From the NCBI GenBank assembly GCA_947568835.1, contig OX387611.1:3352001-3416000 (forward strand): a stretch of DNA of 64,000 nucleotides, read 5' to 3'. The position numbers and the translations under genes are program-made. Shown one piece after another: positions 13,845 through 60,045 of the stretch. The notes under the pieces are model-generated. The model ran no database searches, was not told the DNA's origin, and worked only from the letters and a program-made list of their open reading frames with translations. This stretch comes from Protonemura montana (taxonomy: Eukaryota; Arthropoda; Insecta; Plecoptera; Nemouridae). The first letter of the stretch is position 1. Each line of letters starts with the position of its first letter.

Positions 13845-14957
13845 GTGGATAGTCATGGGGAAATAGATGCTATCTTAATAGACTTAGCTAAAGCATTTGA
13901 TGTAGTACCACACCATATCTTAGTTAGAAAGCTAAGAAAACTAAACTTGGACACAAGAGTTGTAAAATGGATTCAGGAATGGCTGACTAACAGAAAACAA
14001 GTGGTAAGAGTTGGAAGTAGCTATTCAGATGAAGTAATAGTAACATCAGGCGTACCACAGGGAAGCGTACTGGGACCACTTCTCTTTATAATTTTTATAA
14101 ACGACATAAACAAAGAAATATCATGTAAGTTACGCCTATTTGCAGACGATTGTATGATATACTCTGAGGTACGGGACTTGAATGATTGTGAAAATCTACA
14201 GGATAATCTAAATAGGATATGCCAATGGACGTATGAAAATAATATGAGACTGAATGAGCCCAAAAGCAAGCTAGTTAAATTCACAAACAAGCGAAAAGGT
14301 AACCAACTTAAATATAACTATAAAATGAACTCTGTACCTTTAATTTATGAAAATAATTGTAAATATCTTGGTGTAATACTAGATAGTAAATTGAAATGGC
14401 GGAGGCAGGTGGAGTGCGTAGCGGGGAAAGGAATGCGTAGCTTAAATTTTGTAATGAGGAACCTCAGATCATGCAGCGTGGAGGTAAAGGAGATGGCTTA
14501 TAAATCAATTGTAAGGCCATCTTTGGAGTTTGCCAGCCTTGCATGGGATCCAAACCAGCAGGGGTTAAAAGAAATGTTGGAGAAGGTACAGGGAAAGGCC
14601 GCACGAAAGGTACTATCTAAGTACGGGCGGAGACACAGCCCCACGGAGATGATCCGTGATTTGGGGTGGAAACCTTTAGAAGACAGAAGAGCAAATGCTA
14701 AGCTATTAGCCATGTATAAAATAACAACGGGGCAGGAAGCGTGGAAGGAAATGACAAGTTTAATTAAAAAATCAGATTACCTAGGTAGACATGACCATTA
14801 TTTTAAGCTAGCTATTAGAGGTTACAATTCTGATGTAGGTAGATTCTCTTTTCTGGGAACGACAATCCAAAAATGGAATAGTATTAACGCAGTGCTAAGC
14901 TCATGGCCTGACTCAGTTGAGTCTTTTAAAAAAAGACTGAGAGCTCTGGATGAGTAG
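13845..14957 (+). CDS. LINE reverse transcriptase, C-terminal part (370 aa)
   Basis: Non-LTR retrotransposon polymerase, copying its own RNA at a nicked target. Motifs in order: 'DLAKAFDVVPHHIL' (motif A, catalytic Asp), 'TSGVPQGSVLGPLLF' (motif B), 'LFADDCMIYS' (motif C, both catalytic Asp present), then the 'KYLGVILDSKLKW' thumb region and the C-terminal 'LGWKPLEDRRANAKL' block typical of CR1/Jockey-like LINEs. The N-terminal endonuclease is missing because the copy is truncated. The frame is uninterrupted, which suggests a fairly recent insertion, but it has no true start codon: the frame opens with GTG in mid-domain and continues upstream in frame to the truncation point. It cannot act alone. 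Confidence 0.85.
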   Translation: MDSHGEIDAILIDLAKAFDVVPHHILVRKLRKLNLDTRVVKWIQEWLTNRKQVVRVGSSYSDEVIVTSGVPQGSVLGPLLFIIFINDINKEISCKLRLFADDCMIYSEVRDLNDCENLQDNLNRICQWTYENNMRLNEPKSKLVKFTNKRKGNQLKYNYKMNSVPLIYENNCKYLGVILDSKLKWRRQVECVAGKGMRSLNFVMRNLRSCSVEVKEMAYKSIVRPSLEFASLAWDPNQQGLKEMLEKVQGKAARKVLSKYGRRHSPTEMIRDLGWKPLEDRRANAKLLAMYKITTGQEAWKEMTSLIKKSDYLGRHDHYFKLAIRGYNSDVGRFSFLGTTIQKWNSINAVLSSWPDSVESFKKRLRALDE

Positions 14958-20884: not shown

Positions 20885-21340
20885 TTAATATGAACACTAA
20901 ATCCGACTCAATAATTTATGCCCAAACGGGGACTCGAACCCCGATCTTCACCTGTTGCGGGTGTTGCTCTAGCCCATTGTGCTACTTGGACACTGGATTT
21001 TTGAGACAATTTTAGTGAATTTGATGAGATTTTTAGATTTTGGAGTTTACTCGAGGTCGACAGAGTGTGACGTGATAAAACGTCACTAGAATCAGAGTGA
21101 CTGTGAGTATTCACAGCCTCTTAGTTCTACTCCTTGGAGATCCGTCATTCTCATCAATTAAATTAAATCGTCTCAAAAAGCCAGTGTCCAAGTAGCTCAA
21201 TTGGTTAGAGCAACACCCGCGATAGGTGGGCGACGGCGTTCGAGTCCCCGTTTGGGCATCAATTTTTGAGATGGTAATTGTGTTGATAATAATAAAATAC
21301 CCCCCACATTGCAAGCGTTTGCATTTTAAATCAGATTTTA
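20885..21340. mobile_element. foldback element with tRNA-like arms (copy 1)
   Basis: The left end carries a tRNA-like sequence on the minus strand (about 20,920-20,995) and the right end one on the plus strand (about 21,184-21,256). Each has an acceptor-like pair GTCCAAG/TTTGGGC, a D-arm-like 'agctcaattggttagagc' and a B box 'gttcgagtccc'. The arms are enclosed by inverted 'tatgaacacta...' and 'tgagacggt'-type sequence. It lies 50 bp upstream of the OR1 start codon, so it may influence or form the OR1 promoter region. Related copies are at 28,235, 33,734 and fragments at 18,215 and 37,815. Confidence 0.7.
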
Positions 21341-29589: not shown

Positions 29590-30270
29590 CTTGATAATCT
29601 CGTAGCATGCAACCATATGTACCGGCCTTCTGCGCTGGATCAGGTATTGGATGGGTGACCATCATACACATGACCAGTTCTGTTCGGGAGAGAGGTTGGA
29701 GGGATGAAAGTTAAGCAACACTGCGCTTAGTCAGGTATTGGATGGGTGACCATCATACACATGACCAGTTCTGTTCGGGAGAGAGGTTGGAGGGATGAAA
29801 GTTAAGCAACACTGCGCTGGGTCAGGTATTGGATGGGTGACCATCACACACATGACCAGTTCTGTTCGGGAGAGAGGTTGGAGGGATGAAAGTTAAGCAA
29901 CACTGCGCTGGGTCAGGTATTGGATGGTAGACCTTCATACACATGACCAGTTCTGTTCGGAAGAGAGGTTGGAGGGATGAAAGTTAAGCAACACTGCGCT
30001 TAGTCAGGTATTGGATGGGTGACCATCATACACATGACCAGTTCTGTTCAGGAGAGAGGTTGGAGGGATGAAAGTTAAGCAACACTGTGCTGGGTCAGGT
30101 ATTGGATGGTTGACCATCATACACATGACCAGTTCTGTTCGGGAGAGAGGTTGGAGGGATGAAAGTTAAGCAACACTGCGCTGAGTCAGGTATTGGATGG
30201 GTGACCATCATACACATGACCAGTTCTGTTCGGGAGAGAGGTTGGAGGGATGAAAGTTAAGCAACACACG
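29590..30270 (+). repeat. tandem array of 5S rRNA-like 91-bp modules
   Basis: Seven head-to-tail 91-bp units. Each contains 'gaaagttaagcaacactgcg' then 'caggtattggatgggtgacc', which parallels the 5S rRNA internal control region (GAAATTAAGCA...TACTTGGATGGGNGACC: A box, intermediate element, C box). The rest ('catgaccagttctgttcggg' ...) is not 5S. It is the amplified head of a 5S-derived SINE. No unit is a functional 5S gene, since the 5' and 3' stem sequences are missing. Confidence 0.82.
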
Positions 30271-30707: not shown

Positions 30708-33700
30708 CTAGTCGATCTGCGTGAGCATGGTCATAGTGTAGGAGTAGGTCAGCTTCATTGTCTGCAAATAACAAACACAAGCTCAGTCAATCTTAGGTTC
30801 CAGACTCGAGTTTTGTTGAAGAATGCTTCGTTCAGCGAGAGGACATTGTTTCACGGCAGGGTGCCACCCGTCGCTTTGTGGTGAAATGTAGGCCAACTGC
30901 AAACCTTCTTCGCTGATGACCGTCATTTTCCATTTGCGCCACAGCATCCGACAAGCCAAGATGTTTTGCTTATCAAGCTACTATCAGAGTTCTGCCACCA
31001 ATAAATACAATTAAGAAATAAATTTCAGGCATACTTGTAAAGTATTTTTGATCCCACCCACTCGGGGGTTATTTTGCGCGTACGCCCACGTACGCGCCGC
31101 GTACGCACCTTTTCTTGCAACAGTATTCATCGTTCACTCATTCCGGGAAAAGTTTGGCCTGCTCAACATTTAAATTCAAGAAACATGGCAATGGCATTCA
31201 GCAAAACGTAGGTATAGTCACAAAATCTTATCATTCTGAAAAATAAATGCCAAATACACCAGCTCATAATTATGACTACGCAAAGCGACAGCAAGGCTAA
31301 GCTTAGCTAGGCTCAGGCAACGCTAGCCTTTGTCAGGCAGCGCCGACAAAGCGTAGCGAGAGTATAGAAATTGTTTCAATGTTTTTCACCTTTTAGCACA
31401 GCTTCCTTCCCCCCAAGAAAACACACGAACTAGAACAGCACTTGAATTCAATTGAGAGCGTACCCATCTTTTTGTTACAAATTAACCACTGGCCCCACTG
31501 AAATCATAACTAAAAGATAAACACAAATTGGTGGCAACAAATAATTGCTGCCTCGTACCTGGTTTTAAGAGCTAGAATTTTGACTAAGCGCAGCTTACCT
31601 ACGGTCAACTAAATAGATGCAAGCTTTGCCCCTCCCGGAAGCCATCTGTTACCACTAATTTATTCTAATTCTGTGAACTTTAACAGTTTTGATGTCTTAC
31701 TGCGAGAAAGTTTGGTCTGTTGAGTGGTATACACCCGGCCAGTTTGATGATTAGAGGCTGGTTGCTGTTACTCATAATAATGCGCATTGACCTCGTGAAG
31801 CTGTCTGGAGCTCCTAACCAATCACAGCCGTAGATGGCGTCCCGGATTCCCTCGTCCTGGAGAAAAGTAAATAGCAATAAAGCTGGATAATCTGAATAAC
31901 AGGAGGGAAATGCTTTTCATCTGGGGGCTTAGGTTGATTCACTTATTATTTGGGTTTAACGACGCACTGTTCTGAGAACGGGTCATGTGGCACTGGTCTA
32001 ATAGCATCGATGAATAAATGGATGATTACACAGATGCTGATGAGTTCAACTTTGGCTAGAAAGGAGGGGAGGAAACCTGTTGCCTCCACGTAGCCTAACG
32101 AAACTGACAAACGAAATACGTGTGTAATATAAGGCAGTATATTTGACAAACGGATCATAACTATTCAATTCATTGTTAAAAATTTGATGCAAATGTGTTT
32201 TTGGGCTAGACTTTACCTGATCCGTGATTGTGTCGGCTGACAAGCAGATCACCGCCAGTAGTAGGTAGCAGCCAATGACGAGGAAGAAGATCATGACGAC
32301 CTTAACATCAATTATTCCAGCCTAGAAACAAACGATTGAACTGGTTATTTTATTTATGGGTGCTACATCAAGTCTGTCGAGCGCATGCCTTTTGACAAAG
32401 AACCAAGTGCATGTTACGAAAAGGACCGACTCTAACCTATTCTGCCATCAGGGTAAGATAGGAAGAAAAGTGCTTGCTATACTCTAAACTAAAGTTGTAT
32501 TTCAGAGAAAATCTGCGCTGTTTTAAGCTTATATTTGCCCAGTTGAACACGTGAAAGTTGCACTGGGACAGAGTCACATGCCCAGTCGAACACGTGAAAT
32601 TTGCACTGGGGCAGAGTCACATGCCCAGTCGAACACGTGAAAGTTGCACTGGCACAGAGTCACATGCCCAGTCGAACACGTGAAAGTTACACTGGCACAG
32701 AGTCACATGCCCAGTCGAACACGAGAAAGTCTCCTAGTGCACACCCGAGGCAGCCAGTCAAATACGCCATAAGTTAATGTGAGTCCAGACGTACGTTTAG
32801 GACGAGGTTGATGCCGAGTCCTGTGGGCACCAGCGTGCAGACGTAATGCATGAACAGGATCGTTTCGAACGTCGACTCAACCAAGAGAACGAATCTGTAA
32901 GCCAAAGAAATGAAATTTAAATTATACCTTAGAATACCGATCATTGGCACAGAGGAATTTTGCCTGGATATTGGAGAAGTTGACGGTAATCCCGTAAATC
33001 AATTTTGTGTGAAGAAAAGGTAGTCACGGAAACCTCCGTGAAATTGTCTAGATTCTTGGCCATCTAGCAGTTTGACGCCTCCGGTACGAATTGGGAAATA
33101 TTCGTAAAATATCTGTTTATCTCAAGAAAAGCCTCTCACCGTATCAAAGACTGGTGATGCTGAACGCACATCTCAAGAGCATCCCGGTCGGTCAGCCTAC
33201 TTTCAATCTTCTTTTGCGGATTTCGTGGTTCATTGTCGTCTTTTTCTGGTAACTCTTTGCAGCCTTCGACGCCGAATTCCTCAAGCTTGCTGCCAATTTG
33301 CGCGTGGTTGGATTAAAAAAAAAAAAAAAAAAAACAGGAAAAATATTTAAAAGGCAAGAACAAATGAATCTGTGAGCAGGTGAAGTTTTTTTTTTTTACT
33401 GAACGCCCTTGTGTGTTCAACGTGAACTATGTAACGCGTGACTTGACTAAAACAAGATGCGTTCGTGAATATAAATTTAAAGAATGTATGCATGACAAAA
33501 GTTCTGAAGCTATGGGAGTAAAATTGTTAAACTTAATCCACAAACATACACTCATTCTTAAAGAGGCAAACAATTTTCAAGTATACCTGAGAAATTTATA
33601 ACTAAACATTGCTTTTATAGATTTTATCAATTCATAAATGTATCTAGGCTAAAAGAATGACGTTCCAATATTAGGAACATGTAATCAAATGGAATAAAAA

Positions 33701-36700
33701 CCAATTATTAAAATTATTAAAAGTTTTTTATTATTATGAACACTATAACCGTCTCAAAAATTGATGCCTAATCGGGGACTCGAACCCCGATCTCCACCTA
33801 TCGCGGGTGTTGCTCTAACCAATTGAGCTACTTGGACACTGGCTTTTAGAGACGATTTTAGTGTATTTGATGAGAATGACAGTTCTCCAAGAAGTAGAAC
33901 AACGAGGCTTTGAATACTCACAGTCACTCTGATTCTAGTGACGCTATATCACGTCACAACCTGTCAATCTCGAGTAACTCCAATTTGACGTTGGATTCGT
34001 TGCTGTATTTTGATGAAATCTTTGCATCAATTTTTGAGACGGTTATAGTGTTCATAATAATGTTATACCCTTCGCATTGCAAGCGTTTGCAATTTAAAGA
34101 AGATTTCATCATTATTACATGTTTTTCGTGCTAATTTCTATGGTTTTGCCATTGTGCTAACTCATTTGTGGCTTGTTGAAATCACCCGACATTTTGCACT
34201 CATGAGAAATTCCTACCAGTTCAGTTCTCTATTCGGCGACTCCATTCGACGTTCATTAGAATCGCTCCGCAATTGGTTGAGGTTGTACAAAAGGATGCGA
34301 TATTGTCCGACCGTCTCGACAAACATGCCCCAGATGACCATGTACAGTAAGATCATCATGGTGCACAAATAAACCAATCGAAGACTGTTGACTAAGAAGA
34401 CGACCTCGTAGGCTGGCGACTTAAACGTGTCGAAGGGAAACCACTCGCTAGAAAACATCATCCTCTGGGTCAGTATCTGGTTGAAGTTGTTGGAAACGTT
34501 TGTCACAATTGGTACGTACGAAAACTCAGGGACATTTGGTTTTCAAGTTTTAAAAAAAATCACTAGGCGAGTCTGTGTGATTTTAGACTCATGTCTACTT
34601 GATGTAAACTTAGCACTAGTTTTAACAAAAACTATTTCAACTGGGTTTTCAATGCTAAGTGAAGAACAACTAAATTTCCCAACGTTTCGTAACTTGTACC
34701 TGTTACTTTATCAAGGGTAAGAGCAGTCCTGACAATTTTCCGATAACAAAAGAACCACATAAAATAATAACAATTACCAATTTCAAGCTTCCTAAATGCA
34801 TCTAAATAAAATAATCAGGGTCAATAATTAAAAAACTAATGTATTTTGTATTTTTCTCATACACATAATTGGTTAGTTAGTAAAAGACGCCAACTTATTC
34901 GAGATTTTATTTAAGAAAATACAAAATATGTTAGTTTTTTAAATACAATCGCACTGATATGCAACACATTCGACAACAAATCACAATGAAAACATTTGGA
35001 CAGCTCATTATTTGCATTGGTCAAATTGACAGCAAAAATTAAGTGAACATAGGACCATCGCTAAAGGCCTGATCCAACAGATTTATTGACAAACAGTCAA
35101 GGTCTACCTACAATTGACTAATCAATAAGCACAAACACCAGCATAGTAAGTTAAAACTAAGTTTTACATAGTTAAAACTGTTCAAATGGAGATAGTAGCA
35201 ACTGGGGATCCCATATTTGTTATATTATTTAACACTGCCAAACTACATATGCAAAAATAAGTCAGCCATCAATTTTGAAAATCTTCCTTTATTAGTTGTT
35301 TCCGGTTTCGGAAAATGTGCACTTAAATAAAATTTGTTTAGTTGCTAAAACCATTTTTACCAACCTCAATTAAAGAGTAGAAATAGTTTTTTTTTTCAGT
35401 AAAGAAAAACGGAGGAGATACAACGCCCTTCAACTTACTTGAATCCAAATTTCCTAGCGAAGTACAGTTTCGGGAACATCACCATGCTATTGCCAATCGT
35501 AACAAGTCCACATATAAAAAAACCAAACACGACGAACTCCATCCACCTCATGTTCAAACTCAAAATGTCGACCGGCTGATGTGGCAACCGCTTGCCCATC
35601 TCTCTGACCACGTCCATCTCCTCGAATACGGCTCTGAGTCTGTCTTTTTGGAACATCAGGCAATACAGATGGGCGTACATTAGGACCGCAGCGAAAATAG
35701 TGGCGACAGACTCCAAAATTGACTGGACATCACCGGCAACTATAGACTGGAATGTGATGACAGGGAAACCGATTGCCATCGCATAGTTGATCATCACGAA
35801 GATGCCACGTGGTAGCCACTTTCTGTAGAAAGCCCCGAAGCCTTGGCGGTCATTCTTCTTCGGCCAGAGACCTTCCGGATAAAATAAAGATAAAAATATT
35901 ACCATATGAGGGTTAATAAAAAAACGTGGTGTTTTCAGAAGGATGTTGAACTGTTTCAGACACTTTGATTATTTGAATGGCATTCAATAAACTGATCTGC
36001 AGTTTACCATTCTCAGTTTTACTTTCCTTGGGTCTAAGTATTCTTATTAACTGTAAAGTCACGACTCCAAAAATTTAAAAAAACAGCAATGGCTGTGAAA
36101 ACGACTACGGAGAAAAGTTCAATGTGAGTTTCCAATTTCTGAAGATACATTGCCAGTTTGGAGATTAAATATCAAAACCATGACTATTATTTTTTTTCCA
36201 CTGGCTTCAATGGCAAAAAATACTCTAGAGTGTTTCGAATTGGTATGTTCTATACCGGAACAGACGCATATTTCACAGAATTTTTTCTAATATAGCCATT
36301 CTCGTTGTCAACTGATAACAACTGGATAACAATAAATGCTAGCACGCGTATTTATCAATTCTGCTATCTTATGTTACCACGGGTATATCATGGCCTAGCA
36401 TAGGAGGTTCAATGGTAGATTCAACGTTTGGTAGCCATGGAGATGCTGAGATCGCCTGACAGAGCTTCTCAATTCTGCTATCTTATGTTACCACGGGTAT
36501 ATCATGGCCTAGCATAGGAGGTTCAATGGTAGATTCAACGTTTGGTAGCTATGGAGATGCTGAGATCGCCTGACAGAGCTTCTCAATTCTGCTATCTTAT
36601 GTTACCACGGGTATATCATGGCCTAGCATAGGAGGTTCAATGGTAGATTCAACGTTTGGTAGCCATGGAGATGTTGAGATCGCCTGACAGAGCTTCTCAA

Positions 36701-37324: not shown

Positions 37325-37800
37325 CCGATAAGCAGATAAAGCTTGCACAGATATTTCATCCTTATGAGGCAAAGACTAACACAGATAAAGCTTGTACAGA
37401 TATTCCATCCTTATGAGACAAAGACTAGCACAGATAAAGCTTGCACAGATATTACACCCTTATGAGGCAAAGACTAGCACAGATAAAGCTTGCACAGATA
37501 TTCCATCCTTATGAGGCAAAGACTAGCACAGATAAAGCTTGCACAGATATTCTATCCTTATGAGGCAAAGACTAGCACAGATAAAGCTTGCACAGATATT
37601 CCATCCTTATGAGGCAAAGACTAGCACAGATAAAGCTTGCACATATATTCCATTCTTATGAGGTAAAGACAACCACAGATAAAGCTTGCACAGATATTCC
37701 ATCCTTATGAGGTAAAGACTAACACAGATAAAGCTTGCACAGATATTCCATCCTTATGAGGCAAAGACTAGCACAGATAAAGCTTGCACAGATATTTCTA
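37325..37800. repeat. 49-bp minisatellite 5' of OR2
   Basis: About 10 copies of a 49-bp unit ('gataaagcttgcacagatat' ... 'tccttatgaggcaaagact'). It starts about 115 bp upstream of the OR2 ATG. The same array with the same boundary lies 5' of OR3, OR4P and OR5. Confidence 0.93.
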
Positions 37801-37889: not shown

Positions 37890-39380
37890 TTACTCATCGA
37901 TTATTTATTACATTTGATTACCTTTAGAATGTGTTACTTAAAGGCGTCGTAGACAAACATCATGTATGTACACAAAATGATCCAGTTCTTTCAGACAAAT
38001 CTGAGAATAAATAACATTTGTAGAATAGAAATTCTCCAATTTAATTCTCAGCAAAATCGCACTGAGATCCGAAGTTTATTCACGGTTTTCAAAGTTGAAC
38101 GAAATTCAGAATCAAGCGTTTTGATTTTGGTCACGTCCGTCGATAGGGAAACCAGGCGTTCACCTGGAATTATTTCCGTCGCCCTTCGTATTGAATTTTT
38201 TTCACTGAAACTTCTACACATCGAGATAGAAAATATTTTCAAAGCACTGGAAATGTGAAATGTTGAGATTGATTTCTAGTTGCAGTTTTCAGTTACCTGG
38301 TATTAGTGGTATTTAGCGTTTTTTTGGCGCTAAGCGTTTATCCTACGTACCAAATAGCTGTCGCAACTTGAAGTTCAGTCTAAAAATCTCTGCCTTCAAG
38401 TCGAGACATGTTTAAATTGTAAGTATCCTTACGTTGGCAATCTCTATTTCCTTGATCGCATAGGGACAGCGTACGTTTTGGTTTAGAGTTTAAAATTTAA
38501 AAAAATGTTATCTGTGTATTGAAACGAATCGAGTCGAAGACGAATCGAAATTAAAAAAACCCACAACATTTAATTCTTCGATGTATAACAATTTTAATCT
38601 CAAGCTGAACTTGCAAACATCGAAGCAAAATAATTCACTATTTCTGCACTTGCATTTCCTTGGGAGACAGAGAGGAAAGTGGTAAATTATGAGAATGTGT
38701 TATGTAGACTTCAACACATTGCGTTTGGGTAAAACACCGTCAACAAATCGTAACAGATTGGCTTTCCGAAACTCTATGACCGTAATCGACCAGGAACACT
38801 TCGTACAACAATTGGTAGAAAGTTTGAAACAATGACTCATCGGCTATCATATATTTATTGCATGTACATCACAGAAATTACATAGAAAGTAAAAATAATA
38901 TATCTGTATTGCTGGCGGTTTTCCTATCGAACATTGCGGCTCTGTCAAAACTAGATGATTTTTTCAGCTGTTAAACGCTAGTAGTTGGTAAATAAAAAAG
39001 TTTATTAAATAGGAGTGAAACGAGATACCTACTGTTTTAGAATGGATACTGCCGCACTGGATCTAGCTAGGGTGAAGAAATCAATAAAGGTACTAAATAA
39101 TAAAAATAAATAATAATGGCATTTCAAAACTTTTTACTTCCCAAAAACCTTTGCAAACTGGAAAAGCCTACGTCACTGACAAATGGAATTATTTTTACCG
39201 TTTTCTTGATCACCAGTCTTTATGGTATTAACAATGTTCTAAAATACAGGAACTTTTATAATTTTAATACCCCGCAAAGGGGTTAAAAAATATATATTAA
39301 ATATAAATTGTAGTTGTAATTTTTTGCAATGCAGTGAGATAAATGAAAATATTTCCGATTCGTCGTCCTTAAAAAAAACT
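37890..39380. other. intergenic DNA between OR2 and OR3
   Basis: Upstream flank of OR2 beyond its minisatellite. AT-rich, with no gene or element recognised. Confidence 0.45.
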
Positions 39381-40086: not shown

Positions 40087-43000
40087 CTAGTCGAACTGCG
40101 TGAGCATGGTCATAGTGTACGAGTAGGTCAACTTCATTGTCTGCAAAAAACAAAAACAATTACAGTGACGCCATTGTGACGCCTGAAGAACTCCTCGTTC
40201 AGCGAAAGAACGTAGTTTCACGGCAGAGGCGTCACCTGTCGCTTTGTGATGAAATGTGGGCAAAATTTTGTTATTAAAAAATCCTGGAAGCAACGTTTTC
40301 TGATATTTACCATTTTTCTTTTCCTCCAAAGCTTTTTTCGCGCCATGATGTTTTGCTCGTCATGCTACTTAAGTAAATTGTCTACCTTTTATTGCAATCT
40401 TACTCATTCATTTTCTAGTTCATTAAGTATTATAAAATCCAGTCACAGAAATAATAATTAAATTTTAATCTAAAAGTTTTTGGCAATGCAAGAAGGAATG
40501 CACGCATGACGAGCTGTTGGCAATGCTGAGGACTGTCTTTTTATCGTCAATCAAGAGCTAGACTGTAAATTACAGCAGTGAACCAAAGGTCAGTCTTTCA
40601 TATTCAATGACATTTATTTGATGACTTTCAAACAGTTTTGATGTCTTACTGCGAGGAAGTTTGGTCTGTTGAGTGGTATACACCCGGCCAGTTTGATGAT
40701 TAGAGGCTGGTTGCTGTAACTCATAATGATGCGCATTGACCTCGTGAAGCTGTCTGGAGCTCCCAACCAAGCACAGCCGTAGATGGCGTCCCGGATTCCC
40801 TCGTCCTGAAGAAAAGTACATAGCAATAAAGCTGGATAATTTGGATAACAGGAGGGAAATGCTTTTCATCTGAGGGCTTAGGCTGATTGACAGATCGGTG
40901 AAGCTGGATCTGGACAACCGGCCATGCGGCACTGGTTGGCAAATAAGTGGGTGATAATGCGGATGCTGGTAAACCTAACTTTGCTTGGAAAGAAGAAGAG
41001 TAAACCCCGGACTACCACGAAGACTTAACGCGTTGAAGACCCAATGTGGTCGTGGTCCTGTTTGTCAGCGAGACTTTCATATGATCGTCCCTTCCAGCGG
41101 ACAGTTTACAACGCGAACAGGATTCCTCCACAAATCCATGCTGTCGAGAGGTTGATGAGCAAGGCGAGTGAAGTTGCTGTACTAACTTTCATCCCTACAA
41201 CCTCTCTCCCGAACAGAACTGATCATGTGTATGATGGTCACTCATCCAATATCTGACCTTGCGCAGTTGTGCTCAACGAGGACCGGTGTTTCCAGCACGC
41301 TAATTTATTTTAATTTTAATACAAAACAATCAGAATTGAGTGTCAGGAAGTCAGAGCCTCATCGTGTTTTTGCTGTTTGTTTATTTGTATGAGAAATTGT
41401 CGTTTATATATTTTTGTGGGCGCTAGCTTCTGTCTATTGCCCACGCCCCAAAAAATGCGTCTGCCAATGCTTATTGTTAGGAATTATACATTTCTATTAA
41501 TAATTAATACTATTAATAAACAATGGTAAATCTATATACATGCGGTTTAGAAGGCCGTTTAAAAAGATTGTTTCTGGTCCCCTGATAACCATCGATAAAA
41601 CTGTAATACACGAGGTGGAAGAAATCAAGTTCCTAGGACTAATCTTAAGTAGCACTCTTAATTGGGGTGGCCACATTCATAATTTTGCACCCCAGATCGC
41701 TTCAGCTTGCTTCTTGATACAGCGAATCATGCAGATAGCATCATTAAAAATAGCGCTGATGGTTTACTATGCATATATACAGACAAAACTGCAGTTTAGA
41801 ATAAAGAAATCTCCTTAAGATTATTATTTAATTATTATCATTGTGTTCAAATACGCGTTTAAAATAAAATCTGTCGTATTTTTTCTTTTTATAATCCGAT
41901 CATAACTTTTCTATTTATATTTGTTTTAAAATGGCTAAAATATAAATTCTCGTAGCGGGATAAAAACGGGCTGTGACGTCAGAGATTGAAACGGAAAAAT
42001 TTTAAACAGATATATTTTATTCAAAATTGGATTTAGAAGAAAATAAAAAAATACGTGTTCATTATTTTCTCACAAAATAAAAAAAAATATTGTTTCAAAT
42101 TTAAAGAGATTTCCCTATTGTACTGTGGGGAAGAGCAGAGAGACAAAACGGCTGTTTACATTGCAAAAAGAGCATTGAGATACATGGCCAGGGCAACTAT
42201 GGACCTAACGTCAGAATTGTATTACAAAGACTCTTGAAGGCCAATTTTTAAGCATTTTAAAATTATGACGATTCCTTGCCTATATATTTATAATACTATT
42301 GTGTTTAAAAAATTTAATTTAATTTTAAGCTTAAGTAAATAAAACGAGAACTATCAAAGATAGACCAAGATTTTGCAGGTGCAAAACTGTATAATGCTCT
42401 ACCTACATATATTAAGGCAAATAAAGGACAGGCGCTAAAAATAGCATAAAATAGTTTCTAATTGAGAGATGTTTTTATACTGTCAAAGAATATTGCGCTA
42501 TTTAATTTTAAGAAACTGACTCTCAAAATAACGTGTATATGTTTCATAATAAACAAATTATTATTATTATGTGTTTTTGGCATACACATTACCTGTTCCG
42601 TAATTGTGTCGGCAGACAAGCAGATCACCGCCAGCAGGAGGTAGCAGCCAATGATGAGGAAGATGATCATGACGACCTTGACATCCATTACTTCAGCCTG
42701 CAAATAAACCATGAAACTGGTGTGCCAAACAAGTCAGTTGGGCTCTTACCCGTTGACAAAGTACCTCATAAATGTTACAAAAAAGGACGGTTCTATGCTT
42801 GCTTTCCGACTAGGTAAGATAAAAAAAATGTTTCCTTCAGTATATATTTTACAGTTTTTATGTGATCTTTAAAATTTGCATTTCTGTAACAATGTGCAAA
42901 AAATTGAGAAAGAAAGTTTTTGCACAATATGAAAATAAATTGCTCAATATCTTATTTAGATACATCAGCGATTTGCTTGGCTTATATAGTTTATAAATAA

Positions 43001-46214: not shown

Positions 46215-46650
46215 AAGCAGATAAAGCTTGCACAGATATTCCATCCTTATGAGGCAAAGACTACCACAAGTAAAGCTTGCACAAATATTCCATCCTTATG
46301 AGGCAAAGACTAGCACAGATAAAGCTTCAACAGATATTCCATCCTTTTGAGGCAAAGACTACCACAGATAAAGCTTACACAGATATTCCATCCTTATGAG
46401 GCAAAGACTATCACAGATTAAGCTTGCACAAATATTCCATCCTTGTAAGGCAAAGACTAACACAGATAAAGCTTGCACAGATATTCCATCCTTATGAGGC
46501 AAAGACTAGCACAGATAAAGCTTGAACAGATATTCCATCCTTATGAGGCAAATATTATCACTGATAAAGCTTGCACAGATATTCCATCCTTATGAGGGAA
46601 AGACTACCACGGATAAAGCTTGCAAAGAATTTGCATCCTTTTGGGACAAA
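46215..46650. repeat. 49-bp minisatellite 5' of OR3
   Basis: About 9 copies of the unit described at 37,325, more diverged than those of OR4P. Starts about 120 bp upstream of the OR3 ATG. Confidence 0.92.
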
Positions 46651-46659
46651 AGGCTTCCA

Positions 46660-47060
46660 TAGACAAAGCGGCACTACAACGTCACTGTTACACGAATGTT
46701 TGTTCTGTATTTTACATTCCCTAACCCAACAGAATATAAATGAATGTAAGTAGAATAGCGTGGCAAAACTGTCATTATCCAGGTACAATTCGTAACATTC
46801 GCTTAGAAATCGAAACCAAGACGATAAACATGGGATATAAGGCATTCATCGCATGTTATTTATTTAAATTTCCTACCAAAGCAGTAGAATTTCAAGCGGC
46901 TTTTCATTCGATCGAACATAGTAGCACGGATAGTACATAGCGATTGGTTAATAATATATAAGTTTAACGACGCACTGTTTTGAGAATTGGTCGAGCCACT
47001 CTGGTATCATGTAAGAAATCATATTTTTTAATGTTTTTCTGCCCTGCAAAGGGTTCAAGA
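46660..47060. other. conserved 5' flank of OR3, with SINE tail
   Basis: This flank is repeated beyond the minisatellite in OR4P (51,655-52,040) and OR5 (60,040-60,420): 'agaatagcgtggcaaaac', 'gtagaatttcaagc', 'gcgatcgaacatagtagcac', then SINE tail 'tttaacgacgcactgttttg'. It marks the edge of the duplicated unit and may hold promoter elements. Confidence 0.65.
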
Positions 47061-50691: not shown

Positions 50692-51650
50692 AGCAGATAA
50701 AGCTTGCACAGATATTCCATCCTTATGAGGCAAAGACTACCACAGATAAAGCTTGCACTGATATTCCATCCTTATGAGGCAAAGACTAACACAGATAAAG
50801 CTTGCACAGATATTCCATCCTTATGAGGCAAAGACTAGCACAGATAAAGCTTGCACAGATATTCCATCCTTATGAGGCAAAGACTAGCACAGATAAAGCT
50901 TGCACAGATATTCCATCCTTATGAGGCAAAGACTAGCACAGATAAAGCTTGCATAGATATTCCATCCTTATGAGGCAAAGACTAGCACAGATAAAGCTTG
51001 CACAGATATACCATCCTTATGAGGCAAAGACTACCACAGATAAAGCTTGCACAGATATTCCATCCTTATGAGGCAAAGACTCCCACAGATAAAGCTTGCA
51101 CAAGTATTCCATCCTTATGAGGCAAAGACTACCACAGATGAAGCTTGCACAGATATTCCATCCTTATGAGGCAAAGACTACCACAGATAAAGCTTGCACA
51201 GATATTCCATCCTTATGAGGCAAAGACTAGCACAGATAAAGCTTGCACAGATATTCCATCCTTATGAGGCAAAGACTAGCACAGATAAAGCTTGCACAGA
51301 TATTCCATCCCTATGAGCAAAGACTACCACAGATAAAGCTTGCACAGATATTCCATCCTTATGGGGCAAAGACTGCCACAGATAAAGCTTGCACAGATAT
51401 TCCATCCTTATGGGGCAAAGACTACCACAGATAAAGCTTGCACAGATTTTCCATCCTTATGAAGCAAAGACTACCACAGATAAAGCTTGCACAGATATTC
51501 CATCCTTATGGGGCAAAGACTACCACAGATGAAGCTTGCACAGATTTTCCATCCTTATGAGGCAAAGACTACTACAGATAAAGCTTGCACAGATATTCCA
51601 TCCTTATGAGGCAAAGACTACCACAGATAAAGCTTGCACGGGTAGTCCGT
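50692..51650. repeat. 49-bp minisatellite 5' of OR4P
   Basis: About 19 copies, the longest of the four sibling arrays and the most uniform. Begins about 125 bp upstream of the exon 1 ATG. Confidence 0.94.
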
Positions 51651-52188
51651 CCTTCTGGAGCAAAGGCTACCATGGACAAAGCGATACTAAAACGGCACTG
51701 TGTTACGAATGTTTCTTCCGTATTTAATATTCTCTGATATAACAGAATATAAATGAATATTAGAAGAATAGCGTGGCAAAACGAAACCGTCATTGTCCAG
51801 GTACACCTCGTGACATTCGCTTGAAAGTCGGAACCAAGACTTAGGATAGCATTCATTGCAGGTTATTTATTAAAATTACCTACCAAAGCAGTAGAATTTC
51901 AAGCTGATTTTCATGCGATCGAACATAGTAGCACGGATAGTACATAGTCATTGGTTAGTAATATATAAGCTTAAAGACGTACAGTTTTGAGCAATGGTTG
52001 TGCCGCACTGATATAAGGTAATCAACTATATTTTTTAATGTTTTTTAGCCCAGCAAAGGGTTCAAGATACTCGATAGTTTTATTTAATTAGTTTCTTTAG
52101 TGCAATTAATAACATAACTTAAGTCGGTTGAATGCACCTGACAGGTCATAAGTACACGTTCGATGCTAATCTTGCAGATCTCGGCTCG

Positions 52189-55100
52189 CTACTTGAACTG
52201 CGTGAGCATGGTCATAGTGTAGGAGTAGGTCAACTTCATTGTCTGCAAATAACAAACACAAGCTCAGTCAATTTTAGGGTCCAGTCTTGTGTTTCTGGAG
52301 TTTAAGGCAATTAGCAAAAGAAATTCATATCCGGTAGAGGCACCATCCGTCGCTTTGGAGTGAAATGTGGGCCAACTATCATTTTTAAGAAAAAAATGGA
52401 AATAACGATTTCAGACATTTGCTATTTTTTTTTCTTGAAAGTTTTGTTCACGCTAAGATGTTTCGTTCGTCATGCTACTCAAATAATTTGTCTACCTCTT
52501 CTAACAATTTTACTAATTAATTTTCAAATTCATCAAGTATTCTAAAAATCCAGCTAGAGAAATAATAATTAAAATGTAATTCACGAGCTGTTGGCAATGC
52601 TGAGGACTGTCTTTTATCGTCAATCAAGATCTAGACTGTAAATTACTGCAGTAAACCAAGTGTCAGCCTTTCATATTCAATGACATTTATTTGATGACTT
52701 TCAAACAGTTTTGATGTCTTACTGCGAGGAAGTTTGGTCTGTTGAGTGGTATACACCCGGCCAGTTTGATGATTAGAGGCTGGTTGCTGTAACTCATTAT
52801 GATGCGTATTGACCTCGTGAAGCTGTCCGGAGCTTGCAACCAATCACAGCCGTAGATGGCGTCCCGGATTCTCTCGTTCTGGAGAAAAGATCATATGAAT
52901 AAAGCTGGATAATCTGGATAACAGGAGTGAAATGATTTTCATCTGGGGGCTTAGGTTGATTAACAGACCGGTGATGCTGGATCTTAGCAACCGGCCATGC
53001 GGCACTGGTTGGCAAATGAGTGATTGATAATGCGGATGCTGATGAACCTAACCTTGCTTAGTTGGGAGAAGATTGAACTCCAGACCACTTCGAAGCCTAA
53101 ACCCGTTGAAGACCCCGTGTTGTAGGGGTCCAGTTTCTCAGCGGGACTTTTGGCTGATCGTCTAGCATGTTCGTCTAGCATAACAGGTTTCCTCCACAAA
53201 TCCATGTTTTCGAGAGGTTGATAAGCACGATAAGTAAAGTTGCTGTACTAACTTTAATCTCTCCAACCTCTCTCCCAAAGAGAAATGGTCATGTGTATGA
53301 TGGCCACCCATCCAATACCTGACCCAGCGCAGTGTAGCTTAACTTTCATCTTTCCAACCTCCCTCCCGAACAGAACTGGTCATGTGTATGATGGTCACCC
53401 ATCCAATACCTGACCCAGCACAGTGTTGCTTAACTTTCATCCCTCCAACCTCTCTCCCGAACAGAACTGGTCATGTGTATGATGGTCACCCATCCAATAC
53501 CTGACTCAGCGAAGTGTTGCTTCACTTTCATCCCTGCAACCTCTCTCCCGAACAGAACTGGTCATGTGTATGATGATCACCCATCCAATACCTGACTCAG
53601 TGCAGTCTTGATTAACTTTCATCCCTCCAACCTCTCTCCCGAACAGAACTGGTCATGTGTATGATGGTCACCCATCCAATACCTGACTCAGCGAAGTGTT
53701 GCTTCACTTTCATCCCTGCAACCTCTCTCCCAAACAGAACTGGTCATGTGTATGATGGTCAATCATCCAATACCCCACTCAGCGAAGTGTTGCTTAGCCC
53801 CGGAGATCTTATGAGAACCGGTGTTTCCAACACGCTAAGTTCTTTTTATTTTAATACAAAATAATCGGAAGTTTATCTCACGAATTTGGAGACTCATCGT
53901 ATTTTAACTGTTTTTTTATTTGTATCAGAAAATGCCCTTTATATTTTTGTGGGGCACTTGCTTTTGTTTGTTCCTCCCACTCGTAAAAATTCGTAAACCA
54001 ATGCTTATTGTTGGTGATGATACGTATGTGTTTTTGGGATACACATTACCTGTTCCGTAATTGTGTCGGCAGACAAGCAGATCACCGCCAGTAGGAGGTA
54101 GCATCCAATGATGAGAAAGATGATCATGACGACCTTGAGATCAATTATTTCAGCCTGCAAAGAGACCATTGAACTAGTTATTTTCTTAAGGCATGTCAAA
54201 CAAGTCAGTTGGACTCTTACCCGTTAGTTGTGTGCAAATGAGTGTCAGATTTATAATGCTTTCTGTACTTGTCATTTGGTACAGTGACATCTGACCGTGG
54301 GAAATTTGATTAGGTTGCTGCATTCATATTTATTAAACATCTAAAGTGTGTTTATTTTAAGAAATCACGTAAGTAGTGCACACAAAAATACACGTAAACA
54401 TGTGTAATTATATGCAGGAGGTCATCTCAAAATTAATCGACTATAGTTGTCTTCAAACTTAATATCACCTTTCAGCCCAAGCTCACAGTCAAAATGCACA
54501 CACGCACATCTCAAATTTCTACGGAATCTACTATTTATTTCGTACCGTCCAAGACGCTAGGAATTTGCCAAACGTCAGCAGTTTTTTCACAGTTCAATGA
54601 CTTCCTCCTCCTCTTGATTTAGAACCAGCATTTATACCCTACTTACGTTGACAAAGTACCTCGTTAATGTTACAAAAAAGGTCTGTTCTAGCTTTTTTTT
54701 CCGAGAAGGCAAGAAAAAAAACCTTCTTCTAAGAACATATATGTTCTTGAGTGACGTTTTAATTGACATTTTTGTAAAACGGTAACCAAAATTGCGAAAG
54801 CAAGTTTTTGCAAAATATGAAAATAATTTGCTCGATATCTTGTTTATATCGGCGATACATGCTAGGTTTATATATTTTTACTTGTATAGAAGATATCTTG
54901 GGACTAATTTTTATCAAAAAGTTGTGTTGTGTTGGAAAACATAAAAATAAAGTGTGTATACACTCTTGATTTATCAAAATATTATCGATACATTATCAGT
55001 TATCGATTGCATCATTCCTTCTAGTTGGAGCCATCTGTGTATCGGATTATCATGTTGAAATTAGTAGGTGTATACATGTTCATGCTGGTATTACGACTTG

Positions 55101-58100
55101 CACGATTGTTACCAAAAGTGACAAGACTAAAAGTGGCAAACGTACTTTCAGGACGAGGTTGATGCCGAGTCCTGTTGGCACCAGCGTGCAGACGATGTGC
55201 AGGAATAGGATCGTTTCGAAAGTCGACTCAAGCAAGTGGATGAATCTGAAAGCCACAAAATTTAAAAAAATATATATATATTTTACCCCACATAAGCAAA
55301 ATAAAAAATGTGTGTATTATTGTAAATTACAATTGAATGTAATTGACGAGAAAATTCCGGACTTACTTTTGTGTCGGAAAAAGGTATTTACGGAAAATTC
55401 AGTAAAATCTTATAAATCATCTTAAAGGTAACTACAATTATTCTTAAAATGCCTACTTGTTACAAGAAAAGAATCACCACCTTACGCACTTTATTAAAGA
55501 CTGGTGATGCTGGACGCATTTATTTAAAGCCTCCCGATCGGTCAGTCTATTTCTAAACTTCTTTCGCGGCTTTCGCGGCTCATCGCCGTGTATTTTTTGT
55601 ACCTCTTCGTCGACCAAGAAGCCGAGTTTGTCGATCTCGCTGCCGATATGCGCGTATCTGGAAGCCAAAGCGCAGGAGAATAATATTTACAAGTCAAGAA
55701 CGAAATAAACTTAGATTATATGCCAATTATATTTCAGGTCTAATTACAAATTTATGCAACGCATTTTGAAGGATAGAACTACCAACAAAATTGGCTATTG
55801 GGTCATTCCATATCAAGTGCCCACACACAAAACCTTCACTATCTCAGAATTTGACGAAATTTTCAGGAGGTTTAGAACACCGAAAATAAAAACCCCTTTT
55901 ATATTTTTTGCCATACGCCTTACGGTTTGCCCATGGCAGGGGATGGAAAACATAAATATTTTAATTTAGCTCTTTTTGCTTAAAAAAAATCACTTCTCGA
56001 GTTATTATGGGTGGAAATTTAAGGGTTGATTTTTTACACCCCTCAACTTGATAAGTAAGCAATAAATGTATTTTTTCTTGTTAATTAAAGCACAATTATC
56101 AATTAAGAACTAGTCTTATTCTTTTAAGTGTATTTGTTTAAACGCTAGAGTGAATATTGTGAATGGCCGTGCGGGGCAAAAAGTAAAATATTTGGTTTTT
56201 CCATCCCCTGCCACGGGCAAACCGCTAGGCGTATGGCAAAAACATTTACAAAAAGTTTTATATTACTGGGGTTCTAAACCTCATGACAATTTCGTCAAAT
56301 TCTGAGAAAGTGAAGGTTTTGAGTGTGTGCACTTGATATGGAATGACCCAATTGGGTTGATCAAGTGTTATTCCCATTGGCAATTGTATCTTCTGAATAT
56401 TCCGACAAAGTGTTAAAATCCTATGTCAGTTCGCAGGCTTAGTCAGAGTTTCAGCGCAGATAAAGTTTGTCGTTTGAATCAAAGTTCCTTTGCCAAAGTT
56501 AAGAGCATACTTTAGGTCCACAGGCTTTCAGCACTTTTTTAAACGTTCTGCCATCGGGTAAACTTATTCACCCAACAACTTGCTCTTATGATGAGACGTT
56601 CCCTACCGTGTTGCAAGTCTTCTGGGCAACTCCACTCGACTTTTTCTTGAACAGTGTCGTAATTTGTCGATGTTATACGACAGGATGCGATATTGTCCGA
56701 CCGTCTCTACAAACATGCCCCAGATGACCGTGTACAGTAAGATCATCATTATTACCAAATAGGTCAAGCGTAGACTGTTGACTAAGAAGATGATCTCGTA
56801 GGCAGGTGACTTGATCTTGTCGAAGGGGAACCACTCGCTAGAACACATCATCCTCTGGGTTACAAGTTAAAGTGGATTGTATGGTAGTTACCAACAAGCA
56901 AGTCCAGCAACTTAGGTGATTTTAGTTTTCAAGATTGTAAGTGGCTTTTAGTTAGGTATTTGTTCGATTCGTGTTCATCTTTTACGATTCCAACATTAAG
57001 ATCCGTCTCGACTCGAGCTGTGTAGCCAACACCCCTAAATACGGCAACCCCTTCCCATCAGGAGGGTCTTTGTTCAATTACATCAGGAATATCAGGTCAA
57101 CCTCTGCACGTCTGGACACAACTTGTCGGCAACACAAACCACTTATCCGATCGCGACGAAACAAAAACTATTCACTTTTATTTGCACAATTTCCACTATT
57201 GGGCAACATGTTGTCGCTTTTAAAAACAAAAATAAAAAAGTTGTCCTACAATTGCACAAGCTGTAAAAAAAATAGTCTGTTCAATGCTTTTTTGCGGTAT
57301 TTCAAAAAAAAATCTGAGAGTGTTTAGCAACTGTGGTGTCCATATTTGTTCTATTTTTTAAAACTACCAAACTGCATATGAAAAAATATGTGAGCCAACG
57401 ATTTTGAAAAAACCTCCTTTAAAAGTTGTTTCCAGTTACCGGAAAATGTCCACCTGATTATATTAATTGCTAAAACAGTTTTTACCAACCTCAATTAAAG
57501 AGGAAAAGTGGGATTATCTTCCCAGTAAAGAAAAGTGGGGGAGAAGCAACGCCCTTAAACTTACTTGAATCCAAATTTCCTAGCGAAGTACAGTTTCGGG
57601 TACATCACCATGCCATTGCCAATCGAAACAAATCCACATAAAAAAAGACCAAACACGACGAACTCCATCCACCTCATGTTCAAACTCAAAATGTCGACCG
57701 GCTGATGTGGCAACCGCTTGCCCATCTCTCTGACCACGTCCATCTCCACGAATACGACTCTGAGTCTGTCTTTTTGGAACATCAGGCAATACAGATGGGC
57801 GTACATTAGGACCGCAGCGAAAATAGTGGCGACAGACTCTAAAATAGGCTGGACATCGCCGGCAACCATACTCTGGTATATTGTGACAGGGAAACCGACT
57901 GCCATCGCATAGTTGATCATCACGAAGATGCCACGTGGTAGCCACTTTCTGTAGAAAGCCCCGAAGCCGTGACGGTCATTCTTCTTCGGCCAGAGCCCTT
58001 TCAGGGAAAATGAAATACAAACCGTTATCCTCTAGAGATTATTAAATTGTGGTGTTTAACGACGCACTATTTTGACCCCTGGACATGAGGTACAAGTATA

Positions 58101-59322
58101 ATGGCGTCTGTGAATACTAAATGAATGGATGATGATGAGGATAAAGAACATAACCTTGTCTAGAAGGGATAAGGGGAAACCCGGTGCCGACATGGAGCCT
58201 ACTCCTGTCGAAAAGCACCAAGGGGACCACCGGCTACACGTTCCTTCCGAAAGACGGTACAACGCGAACAACAGGATTCCTCCTCAAATCCACGCTGTCG
58301 AGAGGTTGATAAGCAAGGCGAGTGAAGTTGCTGTACTAACTTTCATCCCTCCAACCTCTCTCCCGAACAGAACTGGTCATTTGTATGATGGTCACCCATC
58401 CAATACCTGACCCAGTGCAGTGTTGCTTAACTTTCATCCCTCCAACCTCTATCCCGAACAGAACTGGTCATGTGTATGATGGTCACCCATCCAATACCTG
58501 ACTCAGCGCAGTGTTGCATAACACCGGTGATTTCACGACGACCGGTGTTTCCAACACGCCAAACCGTTTGGTTCTAGAGATAGTAACTGGGACGCTTTGC
58601 GTGCTGTTTTTTGCAACTATTGCAGACAATAAGGCTATTACCAGCACGCGCTATCCTGTTCTTTTGGCAACCTTCCCAGAAAATGAAATAAAACCAAATA
58701 AATCAATGTCAATTCTTACTAAGCATTTTCACTTTAAATTTCCTTGGTTTTTAGAATTCTTGTTGACAGTTAATTTAGGATAATTGTCAAGATTTGTAAA
58801 ATCAGAAATGTTTAATCCTGGCTACTGAGCCTGGTCAACGGTGCGTTTGGAAATGAAATTAAGGGGCCTCTGTCTTGTTCCCACCAGTTTTTAGTACGAA
58901 TATAACTTTGAATGGCTCTTAAATGGTATCTCCTCTCAGAGGACAGATGTTTTACACCAAAGAGGGTACACCATGGCCTGATAAAGAGGTTCAATAGAAG
59001 ATTCAACGTTTTAAAACCATAGATATTCTAAAAAAAGAATATCTTATATCATATATGCAGCATATATATCACCATGGTTAGAGTTATCGATTGAAGTGTC
59101 AGAAGGTAAAAAAGTTGGTCTAAACCAGCATTAAAAATTAAAAGAATTTAAGTGTTAATTGATATTCTAAAAATTGCTCAGCAATGCTCTGGTTTCCAGA
59201 AACTTACCCATGTAGAACAAAAAAGTCCTAAACAAGATGAATGCGTTCAATTCGGTTGAGCGCCATTCTTGGATTCTTGCCGACAAACAATTGAATTTCA
59301 TCTTCATTCCTTCAAACGCCAT
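52189..59322 (-). CDS. odorant receptor OR5 (7tm_6), 8 exons, 458 aa
   Basis: Minus-strand exons in gene order: 59,322-59,208; 57,997-57,565; 56,852-56,607; 55,657-55,490; 55,245-55,146; 54,154-54,050; 52,878-52,723; 52,242-52,189. Each exon is exactly as long as its OR3 counterpart, all in frame with GT-AG sites and no stop. Signs: 'LFRTFLFYMGLWPKKND' at the exon 1/2 join, 'HLYCLMFQKDRLRVVF' in exon 2, 'EWFPFDKIKSPAYE' in exon 3, 'WLQAPDSFTRSIRIIMS' in exon 7, 'KLTYSYTMTMLTQFK' at the C-terminus. Odorant-gated channel subunit, partner Orco, ligand unknown. Introns hold a six-module 5S SINE (intron 6), a long-TIR element (intron 3) and a two-module 5S SINE (intron 1). It is the first gene of the minus array by transcription direction; the same 49-bp array precedes it. 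Confidence 0.88.
52965..53836 (-). mobile_element. 5S rRNA-derived SINE with six tandem head modules, OR5 intron 6
   Basis: Read on the minus strand from 53,836: 'gcgtgttggaaacaccggtt', then GGTTCTC, GATC, CCG, TAAGCA, TTGGATG and GACC in the order and spacing of 5S rRNA nucleotides about 25-100. The 91-bp module is then repeated to about 53,265, followed by the unique middle and the 'ccggccatgcggcactggtt' tail. Outermost copies are the most 5S-like. Confidence 0.8.
54200..55140. other. OR5 intron 5, no recognised element
   Basis: AT-rich DNA about 0.5 kb longer than the matching OR3 intron. No reading frame or repeat that I can identify explains the extra length. Confidence 0.4.
55795..56352. 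mobile_element. DNA element with long terminal inverted repeats, OR5 intron 3
   Basis: The left end begins 'gggtcattccatatcaagtg' and the right end is its inverse. The inverted similarity extends about 170 bp ('ccttcacta/ttctcagaatttgacgaaatt', then 'catcccctgccatgggcaaacc' / its inverse). The corresponding OR3 intron (about 43,770) lacks it. No transposase. A half copy is at 13,300-13,615. Class unknown. Confidence 0.8.
58045..58560 (-). mobile_element. 5S-headed SINE, two modules, near-complete (OR5 intron 1)
   Basis: The best full-length example. Head 'ggcgtgttggaaacaccggt' at the right, two 91-bp 5S-like modules (about 58,355-58,535), unique middle ('ggaatcctgttgttcgcg', 'ggtgcttttcgacaggag') and tail ending 'gtgcgtcgttaaacaccaca' at 58,045-58,065. 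Confidence 0.8.
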
Positions 59323-59454
59323 TTCAATTCTTCTTTGCCTCGCTAGTCTATCAACTTGGTATTTATCACGTTTGAGTACCGAAAATCGTAAAAGATAAGT
59401 GAAAACAAGCAGACTAGATAGAATTACAACGATGACGTTCGGTAAGCAAATAAA

Positions 59455-60045
59455 GCTTCCACGGATATTCCATCCTTTTGAGGTAAAGATTGCCACAGCT
59501 AAAGCTTGCACAGATATTCCATCCTTATGAGGCAAAGACTACCACGGATAAAGCTTGCGCAGATATGATATCCTTATGGAGCAAAGACTACCACAGATAA
59601 AGCTTGCACAGATATTCCATCCTTATAAAGCAAAGACTACCACAGCTAAACCTTGCACAGATATTCCATTCTTATGAGGCAAAGACTATCACAGATAAAG
59701 CTCCACGGATATTCCATCCTTATGGGGCAAAGACTATCACAGATAAAGCTTGGACAGATATTCCATCCTTATGAGGCAAAGACTAACACAGATAAAGCTT
59801 GGACAGATATTCCATCCTTATGAGGCAAAGACTACCACAGATAAAGCTTGCACAGATATTCTATCCTTATGAGGCAAAGACTGGCACAGATAAAGCTTGT
59901 ACAGATATTCCATCATTATGAGGCAAAGACTAGCACAGATAAAGCTTGCACAGATAATCCATCCTTATGAGGCAAAGACTAGCACAGATAAAGCTTGGAC
60001 AGATATTCCATCCTTATGAGGCAAAGACTACCACAGATAAAGCGA
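59455..60045. repeat. 49-bp minisatellite 5' of OR5
   Basis: About 12 copies. The units nearest the gene ('agcttccacggatattccat') are the most diverged; the array ends at the conserved flank 'agcgacactacaacttta'. Confidence 0.92.

Follow-up and report, generated by a model that had tools for sequence, protein, structure and literature searches.

A 5S rRNA-headed SINE with a variable number of tandem promoter-region modules in the stonefly Protonemura montana

The genome of the stonefly Protonemura montana carries a SINE3-type retroposon whose promoter-bearing 5′ module has probably become a variable-number tandem repeat (VNTR), mostly through change at the DNA level that is favoured near contig ends, with arrays also being spread by retrotransposition. 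The element is of 5S rRNA origin, has the anatomy of a SINE with target-site duplications and varies in module number, and its arrays are biased towards contig ends. One insertion is present with one module and with six modules in two paralogs, and one multi-module RNA was retrotransposed. The window referred to below is the whole stretch of DNA analysed (C14:3,352,001-3,416,000; 64,000 nucleotides) in a genome of 258 Mb and 34 contigs.

Modules, 5S origin and SINE anatomy

Arrays of a 91-bp module were identified by TRF at 29,630-30,267 (7.0 copies, period 91, 95% matches), 53,249-53,796 (6.0 copies) and 58,337-58,522 (2.0 copies) of the window, and a lone module was located by BLAST at 41,183-41,277, in agreement with the places and counts (7, 6, 2 and 1) given by an earlier, sequence-only reading of this DNA (Table 1). 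That reading had also called the whole of 29,590-30,270 a SINE. The array consists of modules only, and neither a 5S head nor a body or tail of the SINE can be recognised there; the label therefore does not fit this locus, whereas the 5S derivation of its modules and the existence of the SINE family are both borne out.

Table 1 Features of the module-bearing SINE family in the window
Feature	Position	Strand	Remarks
Bare array of 7.0 91-bp modules	29630..30267	+	begins at module position 11, finishes at position 10
SINE remnant, third paralog, without modules	31937..32097	-	consensus 372-520, 73% identity
Paralogous copy of the 53-kb insertion, one module	40913..41303	-	ends approximate
Older SINE copy: 5S head, six modules (53,252-53,797), diverged body	52970..53848	-	ends approximate
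Target-site duplication, 3′ copy, ATCTCTAGA	58031..58039	.	9 bp
Complete SINE: 5S head, two modules, body, tail	58040..58572	-	
Two 91-bp modules of the complete SINE	58340..58521	-	
5S-derived head of the complete SINE	58522..58572	-	
Target-site duplication, 5′ copy, ATCTCTAGA	58573..58581	.	9 bp

The sequence-only reading had proposed a 5S rRNA-derived SINE with a tandemly amplified Pol III control region, called for alignment of the modules to the species' own 5S rRNA, and named a failed 5S alignment or a better tRNA or 7SL match as grounds for dropping the idea. Host 5S genes were located by a profile search with RF00001 (47 hits scored). The module matched the host gene in 38 of 45 aligned columns with a score of 51, whereas none of 2000 simple shuffles scored above 25, and the SINE head matched host 5S positions 17-92 in 68 of 78 columns (counted from the alignment). 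Approximately half of the module is 5S rRNA (host positions ~49-92, comprising box A, the intermediate element (IE) and the core of box C), and the remainder is an unrelated spacer of just under 50 bp that lacks 5S similarity. On the host box positions that we assume, on which these counts rest, the consensus module retains 13 of the 15 bases in box A, 4 of the 6 in the IE and 13 of the 18 in box C, where the last five are lost; retention is thus only partial for the IE and for the end of box C. In the segment 53,000-53,950 the best Rfam match was 5S at 53,730-53,848 (34.5 bits, short of the gathering score of 38; E 3.7e-5 for this segment), and the seven remaining matches had E values of 3.4 or worse and included no tRNA or 7SL, excluding a tRNA or 7SL origin of the head. 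At gathering thresholds across the whole window, the arrays yielded no Rfam match. The proposed 5S derivation is therefore upheld by the significant host alignment and by the best Rfam match. At the start of C11 the host 5S genes recur every ~9.5 kb, and one has a histone 3′ stem-loop ~185 bp away, which can be read as 5S and histone genes linked in one array.

Alignment of 37 two-module copies showed sharp ends and an order of a ~51-bp 5S head, the modules, and a ~290-bp body and tail terminating in GTGCGTCGTTAAACACCACAAAT with simple repeats. The tail is conserved (GTGCGTCGTTAAACACCA, with simple repeats), and the SINE consensus has no TTTT terminator. Direct repeats of at least 9 bp were present at the expected ends of 20 of 77 head-to-body elements with 1, 2, 5 or 9 modules, including the complete copy at 58,040-58,572, while re-pairing of 5′ and 3′ flanks (200 rounds) yielded 0.1 such elements per round on average and never more than 2. 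The 77 elements came partly from 39 loci chosen by likeness to a two-module query, such that class sizes do not reflect frequencies; incomplete elements (broken module, no head or no body) were excluded before the target-site-duplication and divergence counts, and the one-module copy at 41 kb was omitted from the divergence group means. Among 20 sampled loci, further target-site duplications were found at a six-module copy (9 bp) and at both copies of a duplicated four-module insertion (15 bp). With its 5S head, short length, interspersed copies and target-site duplications, the element is a 5S-headed SINE of the SINE3 type. The duplications suggest that it is moved by LINE-type machinery, and the partner LINE would share the SINE 3′ end, i.e. 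end in GTCGTTAAACACCA. Four headless copies (L070, L074, L079 and L118) share a start at the terminal bases of the 5S head (CCGAAG), adjoined in L079 by an 11-bp direct repeat; this start is possibly a reverse-transcription stop or an alternative start.

The copies at 41 and 53 kb have homologous sequence on both sides and are therefore descendants of one insertion, which now carries one module at the former and six at the latter. Independent insertions are ruled out by these flanks; the insertion was duplicated together with its gene. The remnant at 31,937-32,097 contains the 3′ half of the SINE only, with the same downstream flank as the other two and a different tail; it is probably the same insertion, the differing tail keeping this assignment at probable. 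Two modules of the 53-kb array (2 and 4) are identical, and two others (1 and 3) have an end variant in common, which points to local duplication.

The surrounding gene cluster contains other tandem repeats. Arrays of 49 bp lie at paralogous places at 37,333-37,796 (9.5 copies), 46,218-46,669 (9.2 copies), 50,694-51,672 (20.0 copies) and 59,450-60,043 (12.1 copies), and 41-bp arrays of ~11 copies each at 39,372 and 60,612. As the unrelated 49-bp arrays also vary, local tandem-repeat turnover is not special to the SINE. The exon-like ORFs tested gave no convincing Pfam match and no PDB match that would back the label "OR5" of the sequence-only reading, and Pfam and PDB searches did not assign the duplicated membrane-protein-like exons of the cluster to a named family. 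Elsewhere in the window, tRNA-model matches at 20,919-20,991 and 33,765-33,837 lie within repeats that are 88% alike, perhaps a separate tRNA-derived SINE, and an ORF at 13,845-14,957 with a reverse-transcriptase domain (PF00078, E 4e-25) is perhaps a LINE fragment.

Module number and position along contigs

A genome-wide census was performed using two matched 25-base patterns with at most one mismatch, and reversed patterns as controls. Module-to-module junctions numbered 22,994 (reversed control 0) and module-to-body junctions 7,019 (7,248 with another pattern; reversed control 0). The ratio of 3.3 would put the average at ~4 modules per body, which is a ceiling, since bare arrays contribute junctions too. 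With an exact head-gap-body pattern, 888 one-module and 215 two-module matches were obtained, from which it follows that a minority of long arrays must hold many modules; in two of the 97 listed two-module matches (C4:922,347 and C5:1,628,889) the gap contains a second head, and these are not simple two-module copies. The number of modules, whose count per SINE the sequence-only reading had wanted surveyed across the genome, ranges from 1 to ~20, with one module commoner than two. A fixed dimeric master, first suggested by a search whose query itself had two modules, was rejected, since one-module copies are commoner both in a junction sample unselected for module number and among the head-gap-body matches. 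The exact 25-base SINE junction was not found in viral contigs.

Sampled loci included arrays with 9, 10, 13, at least 16 and 21 full modules, the longest being L093. Among 39 sampled arrays with at least three full modules, both head and body were present in 20, a body alone in 8, a head alone in 2 and neither in 5, and 4 ran beyond the fetched stretch; 33 had at least four full modules, the number of units used to define the squamate arrays discussed below. Array length and heterogeneity showed a weak trend towards greater homogeneity in longer arrays (22 arrays, Spearman -0.43, p=0.045). In L121 (1-724) and L129 (from 635), an internal piece of the module, ACCATCATACACATG (~15-17 bp), has itself grown into long arrays. 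Several one-module copies among the matches listed have the variant GAATGGGTGACCATTATACAC in common, which suggests a one-module subfamily.

Position data cover junctions on C1 to ~28.9 Mb, one-module copies along the whole of C1, and two-module copies on C1-C5. Among the matches listed for C1-C5, 90 of 97 two-module matches lay at most 5 Mb from a contig end, compared with 37.2 expected by length. On C1, 19 of 20 two-module matches listed were this close to an end, as opposed to 29 of 63 one-module matches (p=6e-5). When the first 30 exact junction loci on C1 were considered, at least two full modules were present in 15 of 19 loci at 0.43-2.30 Mb and in 0 of 11 at 2.59-6.28 Mb. Below 2.4 Mb, the exact junctions listed for C1 comprised 19 to a body and 21 array loci; the corresponding numbers were 39 and 2 between 2.4 and 19 Mb (p=1.3e-6 relative to the region below 2.4 Mb), and 37 and 14 between 19 and 28.9 Mb. 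With contig ends taken as chromosome ends, an equation that we infer, the arrays have a subtelomeric preference; the one telomere-like repeat observed lies at the right end of C1. There (L091), (GGTTT)n, an unusual telomere-like motif, fills the printed parts of the last 1.5 kb, and the left end of C1 carries a satellite of ~105 bp.

Bodies of one-module copies were diverged by 0.051 in 8 copies at 2.6-6.3 Mb of C1 and by 0.027 in 16 copies nearer the ends of C1 and C2, and the insertion site or survival of younger copies could partly account for the end bias. The bodies of 40 two-module copies were diverged by 0.049 and do not look young.

Origin of the arrays

The sequence of events that we favour would begin with a founder SINE containing one module. 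After insertion, modules would be gained and lost at the DNA level by unequal exchange, slippage or gene conversion, more frequently in the few Mb next to contig ends. Copies with several modules would occasionally still be transcribed, presumably by Pol III, and retrotransposed, giving a copy-and-paste spread of arrays, and some arrays may shed head and body to leave bare minisatellites such as that at 29.6 kb. Instead of being a SINE remnant, this last array could, if with some improbability, be a bare satellite or a module circle (eccDNA) that inserted alone: it has neither head nor body, and its two ends share one phase (638 bp = 7 x 91 + 1), a coincidence of ~3% when one base is allowed. 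It is, however, one case; other bare arrays (L093 and L117) end at other phases, and recombination or deletion at both flanks would give the same appearance to a SINE that had lost its ends.

Several observations bear on change at the DNA level. One is the insertion with one and six modules in two paralogs. In addition, the two modules of one copy were closer to each other (distance 0.048) than modules re-paired across copies (0.057; 0 of 10,000 permutations), and rare variants were found in both modules of one copy in 6 of 40 copies, against 0.13 expected. On the other side, segmental-duplicate pairs kept their module number in two of three cases (4 and 4 modules at 99.3% identity, 10 and 10 at 96.1%), and the third pair had three full modules plus a partial one versus 13, one partner being without its 5′ part. 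Movement through RNA is indicated by L061, a headless element that starts with a partial module from position 50, followed by 7 full modules and the body, with a perfect 14-bp duplication directly at its 5′ end and bounding the element. A one-module RNA cut at this start would have no full module, and the RNA of L061 therefore had at least two. Across arrays, module distance was 0.047 within and 0.056 between arrays (0 of 1000 permutations) and showed no rise with separation within an array; the small difference and the lack of a rise argue that most arrays did not arise recently from a single local module. These distances and the two segmental-duplicate pairs of constant number speak against a simple local model, and both routes seem to act.

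We consider it unlikely that module number was instead fixed mainly during retrotransposition, with a few multi-module source genes, template jumping, and an end bias created by insertion or retention. L061 and the target-site duplications at copies with 4, 5, 6 and 9 modules are consistent with such an origin, as is the finding that modules of different arrays are nearly as alike as those within one array; the head variant CATGAG also occurs in 5 of 12 copies with at least three modules, compared with 3 of 25 one-module copies (p=0.08). It is at odds with the two module numbers of a single insertion and with the rare variants common to the modules of one copy. In an informal comparison, moreover, the mix of head variants in two-module copies resembles that of one-module copies, and the interior of C1 is nearly devoid of two-module copies, whereas one-module copies are common there.

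Divergence of modules relative to bodies did not distinguish the classes. Module divergence was below body divergence in 27 of 40 two-module copies (p=0.0007) and in 5 of 12 arrays of at least three modules, and the module-to-body ratio was alike in two-module and one-module copies (p=0.96) and did not differ between one-module and multi-module copies. Head divergence in multi-module copies was 0.095 compared with 0.049 for the body, largely due to shared variants.

Extra copies of the 5S internal promoter may have a further consequence, which we regard as doubtful: transcription could start at any module, yielding a ladder of RNAs, allowing activity to survive head loss and letting module number tune activity in the manner of mouse L1 monomers. 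Headless copies would then start ~50 bp upstream of the A box of a module, at module position 41 if the spacing of 5S genes holds. Observed headless starts include module positions 45, 50, 56, 58, 59 and 59, and also 8, 9, 11 and 35, and a target-site duplication of at least 9 bp was present only at the start at position 50. Selection of the arrays as multi-site TFIIIA/TFIIIC platforms or small-RNA sources, roles that the sequence-only reading had thought possible, is very improbable: most of a 5S-type internal promoter is present in every module and the missing TTTT terminator makes read-through possible, but conservation of the promoter half does not exceed that of the spacer (variation per site in arrays of 0.031 in the 5S-derived part, 0.029 in box A alone and 0.024 in the spacer, with the most variable site excluded from the half-to-half comparison), which leaves a TFIIIA-platform role unsupported and lends no support to purifying selection on that half, and exact cores of both boxes occur in 39% of array modules versus 37% of other modules.

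Relation to known elements and significance

Insect 5S-derived SINEs are known, namely HaSE3 (PMC3272025) and PxSE4 and PxSE5 (4,415 and 1,952 copies, respectively; PMC8010984), and target-site duplications are reported for some HaSE3-type copies (PMC3272025). Like the stonefly SINE, they have a 5S promoter head (A, IE, C), a body and interspersed copies. The two papers describe a single 5S promoter region, and the word "tandem" is absent from both main texts (PMC3272025, PMC8010984).

Also related are the SINE-derived satellites (sSats) of squamates, whose tandem units are a portion of a SINE, shorter than the SINE itself and in snakes including promoter box B; most snakes are described as having thousands of loci of few to hundreds of units in subtelomeric positions (PMC10702118). 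The stonefly arrays resemble them in having part-of-SINE units, many loci, a subtelomeric preference and SINE sequence left at an end (PMC10702118). The squamate SINEs, however, have a tRNA head (PMC10702118), whereas the stonefly SINE has a 5S head and a unit that runs from the A box to the C-box core; the stonefly arrays also keep head and body in 20 of the 39 sampled, and a multi-module copy was itself retroposed. SVA and LAVA are non-autonomous retroposons that are still mobilised while an internal VNTR undergoes remodelling at the DNA level, their VNTR being a central domain of 30-50 bp GC-rich repeats (PMC4432496) and that of the stonefly SINE the internal-promoter region. The stonefly element does not belong to this group, which is marked by an Alu-like part and a composite structure of hominoids, as its head is 5S and no 7SL/Alu match was found in 53,000-53,950. 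Dimeric SINEs such as Alu have two head-like units per element (PMC10702118). That number is constant in dimeric SINEs and varies in the stonefly SINE, where the 888 one-module and 215 two-module matches, plus the longer arrays, place the family outside this class. Mouse L1 elements carry a variable number of tandem promoter monomers at the 5′ end. They share variable tandem promoter units with the stonefly SINE, but the mouse element alone is an autonomous LINE with a Pol II promoter.

The claim to novelty made for promoter amplification in the sequence-only reading has to be narrowed, since amplification of a SINE part that includes a promoter box, with subtelomeric bias, is known from squamates (PMC10702118); for the 5S case, no description of tandem 5S-promoter amplification within a SINE was found in the open-licence literature, mostly at the level of titles and abstracts. 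New are the 5S head, the promoter region as the repeated unit, continued mobility, and the presence of both SINE ends in half of the arrays sampled. The family links a retroposon to satellite formation in one genome, in which stages with one, two and many modules coexist with bare arrays, and it provides SINE-derived arrays that are biased to contig ends and have a promoter class other than that of the reptile examples. It thereby offers a testable case of a mobile element with a variable copy number of its putative internal Pol III promoter region.
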